Assembly (NCBI GenBank): GCA_029935455.1
Contig: JAOZKI010000004.1
Location: 1-63,119 of the forward strand
Source: Lysobacterales bacterium
GTDB lineage: Bacteria; Pseudomonadota; Gammaproteobacteria; Xanthomonadales; SZUA-36
Direction of reading: 5' to 3'
Length of the DNA: 63,119 nucleotides
Shown: one piece after another, positions 57,274 through 61,137 of the stretch
How positions within the stretch are numbered: position 1 is the stretch's first letter
How the letters are laid out: every line of letters begins with the position of its first letter
Program-made: the position numbers and the translations under genes
Notes under the pieces: model-generated
What the model saw: the letters and a program-made list of their open reading frames with translations, nothing else
Databases searched by the model: none
Told to the model about the DNA's origin: nothing

Positions 57274-57648
57274 ATGGACACTCTGGAGGCACGACGGCTG
57301 CGCGGCCGGCGCTGGGGACGAATGATCTGGCTGGCACTGATTGTCTGGCAAACCATATGGCTGCTGGCCCTGCCCGAACCGCTCGGAAAACGCAGCATTG
57401 AGTGGACCCTGCTAACGGTTCTGCCCTTGCTGCTCCCGCTGCGCGGCCTGCTGCGCCTGGAAGCCAGAGGCATGATCTGGGGCGGCTATCTGGCCCTGTT
57501 TGCGGCCATGTTTGGTTTTATGGAGGCCTGGGCCGCGCCGGCGCAGCGACCGGCAGCCAGCTTACAACTCCTGCTCTGCCTGGCCTTCCTCTATGCCCTG
57601 TTCGTCGGTACCCGAAAGCCCAGCCGGCAACGGCGCGGCAACCCCTGA
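57274..57648 (+). CDS. DUF2069 inner-membrane protein
   Basis: 124-residue protein with four hydrophobic segments (WLALIVWQTIWLLAL, WTLLTVLPLLLPL, WGGYLALFAAMFGFMEAW, LLLCLAFLYALFV), matching the DUF2069 pattern. No biochemical role is established. The ATG lies 1 bp after the wrbA stop. Its last 29 codons overlap the 3' end of the large convergent gene (87 bp shared, opposite strands). Confidence 0.85.
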   Translation: MDTLEARRLRGRRWGRMIWLALIVWQTIWLLALPEPLGKRSIEWTLLTVLPLLLPLRGLLRLEARGMIWGGYLALFAAMFGFMEAWAAPAQRPAASLQLLLCLAFLYALFVGTRKPSRQRRGNP

Positions 57649-60558
57649 GGGCGGCGCATCAAAAAACCGGGCCCGAATATCTTCAAGCCGTAGCAGCGCG
57701 TGCGCGACGGCGTCGCTGGGTGCGCCCTGCTGGCGCACCGCCGGCGACAGGCTTTGCCACTCAGCAAGAAACTGTTCCAGCCTCACAAACGACGTTTCCA
57801 GCAACTGATCAGCCGGCTCGGCCCGCTGCGCACTGCGCTGAACCTGACGAATATCCAGTAAACCCTGCTGGCCCGCCAGCGCTTCACGCAAACCATCTTC
57901 ACGCGCCAGCAAACGGGGATAAAACATCATCAACTGGCTACGCAGCAGCAGCTTGCCAATATCCACCTCTGCCATGGCCCGAGGCAGACCCTCTTCATTG
58001 CCAGGCCCCGCCGATGGCTGCATTTCACCCAGCAAGCTGCGCTGTTCCTCGCGATAAAGGGCCTGCAGGTGCTGATTCAAAGCCGCGTCGATTGCTGGGG
58101 GCGGCGGCACCTCCAGCGGCGTAACACCCAGCCCGGTAACGAACCAGTCGCGCCATTCCTCCCCCTGCTCCCAGTGGCTGGCCAGCAAACGGGAGGGCTG
58201 CGCGCGCGCCGCCGTCAGGTAGGTGAGTCGATTGGGCACGATACGACTGCGCCCAGCCGGTAACTCGGTCACGATGCGCTCACCAATCCACTCCACGGGA
58301 CAGGCGTCTGCCAGCACCTCGTCCGCGGCCATGGCGAACAGGTAGTGTGACTCTTCCGGTGCAATAAAGCGGAAGGCAAACAGATCGGAGGTCTCAGCCT
58401 CCTGGCGATAGCGCCCGCGCAGATCAAAGGCGAGCCGGCCGTAGTAATTGGCCACATTCTCGTCACCTGGCCGTACCGGCTCACTGCGTCGATCCACCCA
58501 CTCCATCCGGTCGTAGCAAATCTCCAGTGTGCCAAAGCCGGTCTGGTCTGCCACCAGGAAGGACTCATCGAAAAGGCCAAAGAGCGCGCGCGTCGCACTG
58601 AGCGAGCCACTCATCTCACACACCTTCTGAGGGTCACAGGGTCCAATACTTAATTCTTCTGGTCGATAGGCAGTGGCCTGACGCGGTTGGCCTTCGAGAC
58701 GCACATCGGCTCCTGGCGCCAGCCGCTCTGCGCGCCAATCCCTTCGCGCGTCCTCCAGCCCGCGCCCCAGGTCACGCAGACGGAGCTCATAATCGGTGCT
58801 GACGCGATACACCGGATCATTGAGCGTCTCACCGGCACCCACCAGACAATCAAGCTGCGCCGACAAGCCCTCCGTCAGCTCACGACCAACGGCCAGCATG
58901 CGCTGCAGCCGCTGCTCGTTTTCCGGCGTTTGAAAGAACACGGGCGACTGTTCCGCAAACCAGGCCATAAAGTTCGCCAGGTACGCCCACTCCAACGGGT
59001 TGGGCAGTGGTCGCGCGGGCAAATCACAGGCGGTCACCAGGCGATCATCGATCCAGCCCAGCACGTAGTTCACCCGCTGGGCAGTGGTCAAGCGCAACTC
59101 GCGGCGAAGATTCGAGGCTTCAAAGGGCCCGCCGACACTACCCGCCAGCTGCGCGGTTCGACTCTCAAAGCTGGCCAGTTCCAACAGCGTTTCCTGGCAG
59201 TCGTCGAACAGCTGCCGAGTCATGGCCGGTGTGCCATCAGCATCCACACTACCGGCAATGGCGGTGCACGCGTCGAGGCTCCCGGCAATGGGATCACGAA
59301 CCGGCTGATCGAAGTAATAACCAATATCCGGTACCAGCAGCGTCAGCGCCGCAACCGCGTCAGCAAGACGCAGGCGCAGTGCCGCGAGTTGCTGGGCCGA
59401 CACCTCTCCCGAAAGGGTCTGAAGCGCATCAAAACTGGTGGCTAACACCGAGTTGACGCGAGGATCAACCGCCGAGAAGGAATACCCGAAGTGCTCCGAC
59501 AATAAGGGCAACTGTTCCGTCAGCCAAGCGGCGAACCAGCGTGTCTGGGCTGGATAGAAAGGGGCATCTCCCTGGAGACCCGCAACCAGTGCAACCAGAC
59601 CGTTCGCAAAGGGCAGATATTCATCCCGGTACAACCCCTCAATCAGACTGGCCAGCTGCAACAGACCCGCTGCGTGGGCGCGGCGGCCCGCATCCAGCTC
59701 CGGCAGCGCCAGCTGCAGGTCCCGGCGCACACGATAGAGCCGCAGCAGATCTGGCGGCCCTACGGATACCGCTTGTCGCAGGGACACCGCCAAGGAATCC
59801 ATGGCTGCTGCCAGCACCTGATCATCGATTGCCATTGCAGCAAGCTCGGGGGACGGTGTGCGTTCGGTTGCTGCGGGCCAGGCAAACCACTCGGGCAGTT
59901 CCTGGAGCAGTTGTGCGGCCAGCCAGGGGTCACTGGCGAGTCGCACCCTCAGGCCCTGCCACTCGACACTGGCATTGGCATCCAGATACCAGAGGAGTTG
60001 TGGCAGCGCACTGGCGGCCAGGGCCGGATGCTGACGATCAAACAGCTGTCGCCGCAGCGGTGCTTGTCCGGGACCCAGAGGCGTCGTAAGCGTCGTGGCA
60101 GGCAGTTCGACCCGATCCAGTTGCACTTGCAGCTGCCAGGCAGCGGTATCCATTAGCGGGCTGCGGATCAGCGGCGGCGCATAGCGTGCGCGCAACTGCT
60201 CCAGCCATTCCCGGTGGCTACGCAGCTTGCCAAGCAGCTTGGCCGCCGCGTCCGCATCAGTGGCCGGCGCTACGTCTCTCAGGGTGGTCAGCGTAGCCAG
60301 TGTCAGCAGCGCCTGCGTGCGTGTTTCCGACCCGGCAACGGCTTCCGCCAGCGAAGCGACGGGGGCAAGCTCAACCAGCTCCGGCGGCACCAGCACCGGC
60401 TCAGTCACGGTCGCTTCAGGCAGCGCAACTGGCGCTGATTCGTCACTCTGCCCCCAGCCGCTCAGCGGCATGGCCAGTAGCAGCAGGCACAGCCAGCCCG
60501 GGCGGTTAAGGAACCGCCGCGTCCAGTCCAGCTTCTGAGCTTGCAAGTGCTTCAACAA
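57562..60558 (-). CDS. Large exported protein of unknown function
   Basis: 998 residues, not recognised. The N-terminus carries a probable signal peptide (GWLCLLLLAMPLSGWGQ, about residues 21-38). The mature part is Leu/Ala/Arg-rich, mostly helical, without clear transmembrane segments, low-complexity blocks or catalytic motifs. Eight Cys lie after the signal, two of them close together in GPCDPQKVC, which suits a periplasmic disulfide protein. The start is unusual: TTG 60558 (or the next codon, also TTG), with no ATG or GTG before the signal-peptide core. The 3' end overlaps the DUF2069 gene by 87 bp. The open frame of 3 kb and normal composition support a real gene. Confidence 0.8.
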   Translation of the reverse strand: MLKHLQAQKLDWTRRFLNRPGWLCLLLLAMPLSGWGQSDESAPVALPEATVTEPVLVPPELVELAPVASLAEAVAGSETRTQALLTLATLTTLRDVAPATDADAAAKLLGKLRSHREWLEQLRARYAPPLIRSPLMDTAAWQLQVQLDRVELPATTLTTPLGPGQAPLRRQLFDRQHPALAASALPQLLWYLDANASVEWQGLRVRLASDPWLAAQLLQELPEWFAWPAATERTPSPELAAMAIDDQVLAAAMDSLAVSLRQAVSVGPPDLLRLYRVRRDLQLALPELDAGRRAHAAGLLQLASLIEGLYRDEYLPFANGLVALVAGLQGDAPFYPAQTRWFAAWLTEQLPLLSEHFGYSFSAVDPRVNSVLATSFDALQTLSGEVSAQQLAALRLRLADAVAALTLLVPDIGYYFDQPVRDPIAGSLDACTAIAGSVDADGTPAMTRQLFDDCQETLLELASFESRTAQLAGSVGGPFEASNLRRELRLTTAQRVNYVLGWIDDRLVTACDLPARPLPNPLEWAYLANFMAWFAEQSPVFFQTPENEQRLQRMLAVGRELTEGLSAQLDCLVGAGETLNDPVYRVSTDYELRLRDLGRGLEDARRDWRAERLAPGADVRLEGQPRQATAYRPEELSIGPCDPQKVCEMSGSLSATRALFGLFDESFLVADQTGFGTLEICYDRMEWVDRRSEPVRPGDENVANYYGRLAFDLRGRYRQEAETSDLFAFRFIAPEESHYLFAMAADEVLADACPVEWIGERIVTELPAGRSRIVPNRLTYLTAARAQPSRLLASHWEQGEEWRDWFVTGLGVTPLEVPPPPAIDAALNQHLQALYREEQRSLLGEMQPSAGPGNEEGLPRAMAEVDIGKLLLRSQLMMFYPRLLAREDGLREALAGQQGLLDIRQVQRSAQRAEPADQLLETSFVRLEQFLAEWQSLSPAVRQQGAPSDAVAHALLRLEDIRARFFDAPPSGVAAPLPAGLSGTDEQGIEEGQAEQEL

Positions 60559-60648
60559 TTAGGTCCGCGCGGCGGCAGTCCGGCTATACTACCGGACTGC
60601 CCGTTAAGGGCAAAACTCGCCTCAGGAAACAGTACGGAAACCGCGCGC

Positions 60649-61137
60649 ATGAACGACAGGCTATTGATCATCACCACCGGCGGTACGATCGACAAAATCT
60701 ATTTCGACGATAAGAGCGACTACCAGATTGGTGAGCCGCAGGTATCAGAGACGCTGGCGCTGATGAATGTCGCGCTGGACTATGAGGTACTGGCGCTCAT
60801 GCGCAAAGACAGCCTGCATCTGGACGCGGAGGACCGGCAAAAGATCCGGGGCGCTATCGAGGCCAGCGATGCGCGCTATGTGCTGATCACCCACGGCACC
60901 GACACCATGGTGGAAACCGCCGCAGCGCTGGATGGGCTGGGCGAGCGGCGCATCGTACTTACCGGCGCCTTGCACCCGGCCCGCTTCCGCGACTCCGATG
61001 CGGTGTTTAATATCGGCTGCGCCCTCGGGGCCGTGCAGGCGGTTGCGCCGGGCGTCTGGATCACCATGAATGGCCGGCTCTGGGATCCGAAAACGGTGGT
61101 AAAAAACGTCGCAGCGAACCGCTTCGAGGCGCGCTAG
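60649..61137 (+). CDS. Single-domain asparaginase family protein
   Basis: 162 residues covering only the N-terminal domain of L-asparaginase, which is normally about 330. Both active-site threonine motifs are kept: TTGGTIDKIYFD and THGTDTMVETA, with the following TGALHPARFRDSDA segment. The smaller C-terminal domain, which completes the active site in classical tetramers, is absent, and the sequence ends normally. Short forms like this exist as a separate family in proteobacteria; activity is unproven. GGAAA precedes the ATG. It diverges from the large exported-protein gene. Confidence 0.85.
   Translation: MNDRLLIITTGGTIDKIYFDDKSDYQIGEPQVSETLALMNVALDYEVLALMRKDSLHLDAEDRQKIRGAIEASDARYVLITHGTDTMVETAAALDGLGERRIVLTGALHPARFRDSDAVFNIGCALGAVQAVAPGVWITMNGRLWDPKTVVKNVAANRFEAR

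Follow-up and report, generated by a model that had tools for sequence, protein, structure and literature searches.

A gene for an apparently exported orphan protein lies at positions 57562–60558, on the minus strand, of a 63,119-nucleotide stretch of DNA from a Lysobacterales bacterium (assembly GCA_029935455.1, contig JAOZKI010000004.1), referred to here as the window. The gene is real and conserved, it has no family assignment, and its product yields a confident structural model with no significant match among solved structures. Our leading but tentative reading, held at somewhat below an even chance, is that the product is an old protein, passed on mostly by vertical descent in several Lysobacterales lineages, that works in the periplasm as a soluble scaffold or binding protein and is encoded head-to-head with an asparaginase.

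The open reading frame was found at the coordinates and with the TTG start given in a preliminary description of the window, and it encodes 998 residues. Because an in-frame TAA immediately precedes the tandem TTG TTG with which it opens, the frame cannot begin further 5′. Residues ~22–34 are hydrophobic and have Arg residues ahead of them, and the N terminus closes, as read by eye, with the signal peptidase I-like sequence GWG/QS. This agrees with the signal peptide proposed earlier, and the putative signal region would comprise residues 1–37 (60448–60558, minus strand), with low model confidence at residues 30–52. An N-terminal hydrophobic stretch is present in all 46 homologues examined, for which the start codons were partly chosen by hand, and a lipobox pattern occurs in none of the 46 N termini. 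A signal peptidase-site pattern also passed all 46; it was too loose to discriminate and was dropped as evidence.

Homologues were found in 40 of 61 genomes, the window's own genome counted, and, with a 23-row profile, in 102 of the 398 genomes searched from the order. In the window's own family, f1, 36 of 39 genomes are positive among the genomes listed, a listing in which that family apparently came first and outside which lie 276 further negative genomes of the order. A 46-row profile gave 32 of 33 positive genomes in family f8 and four of four in f5, one of the latter being an uninformative contig-end fragment (G040). With the same profile 30 of 43 genomes are positive in f9, made up of 29 of 30 in genus g22 and the one genome of g68, and the other five genera have none (0 of 12). 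A single genome, G045, is positive in f10. In a class-wide sample 1 of 369 genomes was positive, and this was the window's own. The phylum sample gave 8 of 398 at E ≤ 0.1, namely the window's genome and seven weak local matches (E 0.0016 to 0.058). Two of the seven, a MalT-like LuxR regulator and a UbiB-like kinase, were read by eye and judged unrelated; with these two inspected, the phylum sample held no convincing relative from outside the order. The metagenome-assembled genomes at 33 homologue loci are labelled Lysobacterales, Xanthomonadales, Chromatiales, Oceanospirillales, Gammaproteobacteria or Proteobacteria, and no genome in the searches has a clear second full copy. These results support a family confined, in the searches made, to parts of one order. 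Of the lineage-specific envelope factor suggested in the preliminary description, the lineage specificity is borne out, and the envelope function is something that we infer.

The gene is under purifying selection. Comparison with its closest sister, at locus L003 (88.6% identical), by the Nei-Gojobori method gave a nonsynonymous distance of 0.068 and a synonymous distance of 0.760, a ratio of 0.089 over 996 codons. The frame, whose loss in sister strains had been named earlier as grounds for doubting the gene, is kept in sister genomes. At L003, L004 and L020 the aligned frame stops 2 to 18 residues short of the query end, which fits the single stop reported in each. An inner TGA is reported for the homologue of genome G019, and single stops for some others.

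The protein has nine Cys residues. One, C24, falls within the signal region; the other eight (C431, C454, C511, C571, C641, C647, C681, and C753) lie in the mature part and are the eight counted in the preliminary description. All eight mature Cys are invariant in the 46 homologues, which come from at least five families; the 46-row alignment (A2) omits L107 and truncated homologues. The only other column with six or more Cys is that of C24 (7 of 46). The best-conserved part of the protein spans residues ~400–830.

An AlphaFold2 model of the whole protein has a mean predicted local distance difference test score (pLDDT) of 87.8 and a predicted template modeling score of 0.81. It has helices at residues 67–612, strands at 637–781, helices again at 788–966, and ends of low confidence. 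The protein had been called helical, which describes the helical regions of the model and leaves out the β domain at ~637–781. The architecture is confidently predicted to be a helical solenoid with an inserted β domain and a helical C terminus. On the minus strand, the N-terminal helical region (residues 67–405, 59344–60360) is the less conserved half, and the conserved helical core (residues 412–612, 58723–59325) contains C431, C454, C511, and C571. The β domain (residues 606–828, 58075–58743), with a pLDDT of 91.1 when modelled alone, contains C641, C647, C681, and C753. It is followed by the C-terminal helices (residues 824–966, 57661–58089) and a variable low-confidence tail (residues 967–998 and the stop codon, 57562–57660), the last 87 bp of which (57562–57648) overlap in antisense the 3′ end of the neighbouring DUF2069 gene.

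That the protein has no recognisable family, as first described, held in every search. No match was obtained with Pfam (E ≤ 1), NCBIfam (E ≤ 5) or PHROG (E ≤ 1), and PADLOC returned no family at E ≤ 0.1 for the window protein or for the four family members submitted. The best phmmer match in the PDB had an E value of only 1.6. When the 46 homologues were searched against Pfam-A and NCBIfam, only scattered weak matches appeared, each in one or two members, and the phage and plasmid collections gave no match. A PDB profile match to Crov588, a giant-virus protein with FNIP/FGxxFN repeats (E 1.8e-4), was rejected as a summed leucine-rich-repeat artefact. It consists of seven stretches of at most 5 bits each, which mostly fall on a single short VPNRLTYL-like motif, and the 998-residue protein does not carry tandem LxxLxFGxxFN repeats along its length. 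In a paper on Wenzhouxiangella AB-CW3, the words "asparaginase," "hypothetical protein," and "uncharacterized" are absent.

An exported protein of this kind could also act further out, as an extracellular or cell-surface structural protein (a surface-layer or matrix component or an adhesin) that crosses the outer membrane after disulfide folding. Its size and acidity would suit such a role, the computed mass and isoelectric point from residue 38 being 105.8 kDa and 4.66, as would the signal-like N terminus and the variable low-confidence ends. We consider this possible but distinctly less probable than a periplasmic protein. Inspection by eye, with no program, revealed no sorting tail or outer membrane anchor, and NpdA, the one surface-layer protein that a literature search brought up, is reported to weigh 52 kDa when mature (PMC10765051), as against 105.8 kDa here. 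Identity with NpdA was set aside on size alone, and the sequences were not compared.

A second alternative assigns the β domain to a highly diverged fold for lipid handling or outer membrane biogenesis (LptE-, HpaA/CsgG- or TULIP-like) that, mounted on a helical carrier, would move or plug a lipid or an outer membrane protein. Most of the top rows for the β domain in VIA-align are proteins of this sort (HpaA, Z 3.8; LptE, 3.7; CsgG, 3.5; LBP and SPLUNC1, 2.8–2.9), and SPLUNC1 heads the Foldseek comparison of the whole model (E 0.12). All of these fall below significance, however. In the PDB, Foldseek returned no row at E ≤ 0.001 either with the whole model or with residues 606–828, a negative that extends only to the families in those lists. 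The best row for the β domain (E 0.064) is PBP2a, and FlgT (Z 3.6) equals the lipid-handling proteins. The best VIA-align scores, Z 7.8 for the whole model (to helical proteins) and 3.8 for the β domain, are not significant by the tool's own yardstick. The lipobox expected of an LptE-like lipoprotein is also lacking, and we judge this alternative unlikely.

Slightly less likely still, the protein may be secreted as an enzyme whose active site, of an unusual kind, draws on the invariant Arg, Glu, Tyr, and Trp residues. Besides the Cys residues and W524, W687, W796, and W802, the invariant residues include Y415, R421, R486, Q494, N520, E523, Q672, Y682, R690, R777, and T779, and these eleven could line a pocket. 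Against this, no enzyme family matches, and no His, Asp, Ser or Lys is invariant in the 46 homologues, which leaves T779 and the Cys residues as possible nucleophiles. Since these four residue types are missing from the invariant set and E523 is its sole acidic member, nothing resembling a classical hydrolase or metal site can be seen. The pattern of invariant residues looks more like that of a disulfide-braced scaffold or binding protein than that of an enzyme.

The most constant neighbour of the gene is a divergent one-domain asparaginase (PF00710) at 60649–61137 on the plus strand. It lies upstream in 43 of 45 loci (41 of 43 distinct genomes), and a search of 25 genomes found its relatives in 17, every one of them within the order. 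The asparaginase in the window has 162 residues and comprises the N-terminal PF00710 domain only. On the other side, a DUF2069 membrane protein is encoded convergently (57274–57648, plus strand). The preliminary description had asked whether the gene always accompanies DUF2069. It does not: DUF2069 is present in only 37 of the 51 loci with sufficient downstream sequence (35 of 49 distinct genomes) and also occurs without the gene, and the asparaginase is the steadier partner. The locus counts include two genomes twice (L059/L113 and L061/L112). DUF2069 was not found in the f1 loci L045, L047, and L053 or in the f8 loci, nor was it found in the f5 loci, in two of which a small protein (cluster 23) that was not checked for DUF2069 occupies its place.

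The other neighbours named earlier were recovered by Pfam as BrkB/YihY, a thioredoxin-like TlpA, and an FMN_red/WrbA-like protein. Most f1 and f9 loci share a block of lpxA-, lpxB-, and rnhB-like genes, TlpA-like, YihY, ArsC, WrbA, DUF2069, the gene itself and the asparaginase, to which f1 adds DUF445 and Mpo1-like genes; single members, WrbA foremost, were not found in many loci. The names LpxA, LpxB, and RnhB, like YciO, ScpA, ScpB, and RluB below, are labels that we presume from our own reading of the sequences, with no family search behind them. The nearness of TlpA and WrbA says little about function, because the two also sit together in genomes that lack the gene. In f8, the asparaginase is accompanied by YciO-, ScpA-, ScpB-, and RluB-like genes, and the divergent arrangement of the gene and the asparaginase persists in seven of the eight loci fetched. 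No asparaginase was found near the gene in f8 locus L104 or in f10 locus L103. Three of the eight f8 loci (L105, L106, and L108) have a DsbD-like gene immediately downstream in the same orientation, ~17 nucleotides away in L105, the only one of the three checked with Pfam. DsbD is a periplasmic thiol reductase, and such a neighbour is in keeping with a redox-dependent periplasmic life.

Fourteen loci from genomes of the order that lack the gene were compared. DUF2069 and the asparaginase are adjacent on the same strand in five of them (L133, L134, L135, L141, and L145). L133, from the window's own family, retains the full LpxB-to-Mpo1 block, with ~115 nucleotides between the DUF2069 and asparaginase matches. 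The two are ~2 to 3.4 kb apart in L136, L140, and L142; in L143 WrbA is near and DUF2069 was not found; and in the other five the asparaginase is elsewhere or on a short contig. Because five gene-less loci keep the pair adjacent, the gene is either a reversed insert in an old WrbA-DUF2069-asparaginase order or one that was cleanly lost from it. On an asparaginase tree of 59 loci the 14 absences require 3 changes, against a mean of 12.7 after shuffling, and the simplest reading of this tree, which is built from one short gene and rooted at its midpoint, would be one early gain followed by a few losses. Mobile cargo or a defence gene inserted in a core locus is very improbable: the gene does lie reversed between two genes that can be adjacent without it, but it is near-universal in most groups that have it, mostly by the same asparaginase, its absences need few changes on the tree, and neither PADLOC, PHROG nor the phage and plasmid collections gave a match. 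A functional coupling suggested by the joint absence of asparaginase and gene in genome G053 was dropped because the ScpA of that genome shares just 31% identity with its counterpart in another family member.

The region between the two start codons contains a perfect 10-bp inverted repeat around CTATACTA (60574–60601), centred on TATACTA, which reads TATACT on the plus strand (60585–60590) and TAGTAT on the minus strand (60591–60586). This symmetric core probably serves both genes, and the inverted repeat is possibly also a regulator site. At the sister locus L032, 8 of the 10 repeat positions still pair by eye, and fewer do in others. In the direction of the gene, TAGTATA is kept at varying distances in 29 of 46 asparaginase upstream regions (29 of 44 distinct), against 0.55 expected from mononucleotide shuffles. 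In six f9 loci (L095–L099 and L110) the chosen ATG follows TAGTAT by 6–7 nucleotides, so the message is probably leaderless in these genomes. Two reports describe divergent bacterial genes that can share a symmetric core promoter (PMC12825309, PMC10268837).

These observations support a protein that is exported, probably oxidatively folded, and no obvious enzyme, and our best guess is that it acts in the periplasm as a scaffold or by binding. According to this reading, the protein would be exported by Sec and then cut by signal peptidase I, and its eight invariant Cys would form probably four disulfides by oxidative folding. The curved helical solenoid may then position the inserted β domain at the envelope for contact with a ligand or partner. 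The gene and the one-domain asparaginase would be transcribed head-to-head, probably from a shared symmetric −10 element.

Several observations weigh against a soluble periplasmic protein tied to the asparaginase. Residues 391–409 are the one mature stretch above the hydrophobicity cut-off for a membrane segment, and membrane attachment is possible; in the model the stretch appears as a single helix (388–406) of the helical region. The 14 gene-less genomes sampled from the order retain the asparaginase, and the gene is therefore dispensable there. Distances of the two proteins do correlate across 40 paired loci (r 0.779), which speaks for the pairing, but the value is uncorrected and partly reflects shared phylogeny. 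The gap between the two genes is ~1.7 kb in L056, and in three f8 loci an extra gene lies between them. This gene encodes a protein of ~260 residues on the strand of the homologue (L107, 6238; L109, 6217–7008; L114, 6062; in homologue orientation), which in L109 matches no Pfam family. The DsbD-like neighbour is confined to one branch. The f5 and f8 loci and some of the f1 loci lack TAGTATA, and a scan with the standard σ70 consensus found no site in the intergenic region of the window. Finally, the structural resemblances of the β domain (Z ≤ 3.8) are at noise level.

That a large exported protein, kept by strong selection in five families of one order, still lacks a family assignment exposes a blind spot in annotation. 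Loci that have the gene can be paired with loci that lack it, and these pairs, together with the gene-less genera inside a positive family, provide a natural test of its cellular role.

Among known systems, the helical parts recall HEAT/TPR-like solenoids (RalGAP, VPS35, and importin-β) in their general helix pairing, with Z up to 7.8. These alignments cover ~70–210 residues, and such Z values are common among unrelated helical proteins. The LptE/HpaA/CsgG-type proteins (PDB codes 5iva, 8t8d, and 7brm) are exported, as this protein appears to be, and crowd the top of the weak list for the β domain. They differ in having only 7–8% identity and chains of ~130–260 residues, whereas the domain described here is part of a protein of ~960 residues; in addition, LptE-like lipoproteins carry the lipobox that this family lacks in all 46 members. 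The TULIP proteins SPLUNC1/BPIFA1 and LBP, whose superfamily is marked by a long helix enclosed by a curved, antiparallel sheet, occupy the first Foldseek rows for the whole model, although for the β domain they reach only E 0.068 or worse with a template modeling (TM) score of ~0.2, and the PDB search gave no sequence match to them.

Predicted structures of two giant-virus proteins stood out, A0A3G4ZLL3 of Terrestrivirus (968 residues; Foldseek E 2.6e-6 over ~970 alignment columns) and A0A481YRC7 of Marseillevirus LCMAC101 (1192 residues; E 8e-5 over ~1230 columns), the next row in the viral structure library having an E value of 0.36. Their TM scores are 0.22–0.29, with root mean square deviations of 54 and 26 Å and 10–11% identity, and two scans of viral_contigs for sequence relatives gave 65 pattern matches each, none of which was confirmed. 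The predicted resemblance is a lead only. A more far-reaching interpretation, which we consider improbable, is that the protein has a new fold and belongs to an envelope system, likewise new, that goes back to the ancestor of the order, was lost in its other branches, and in which a disulfide-braced solenoid would carry an inserted lipid- or protein-binding β domain, an architecture that would recur in the giant viruses.

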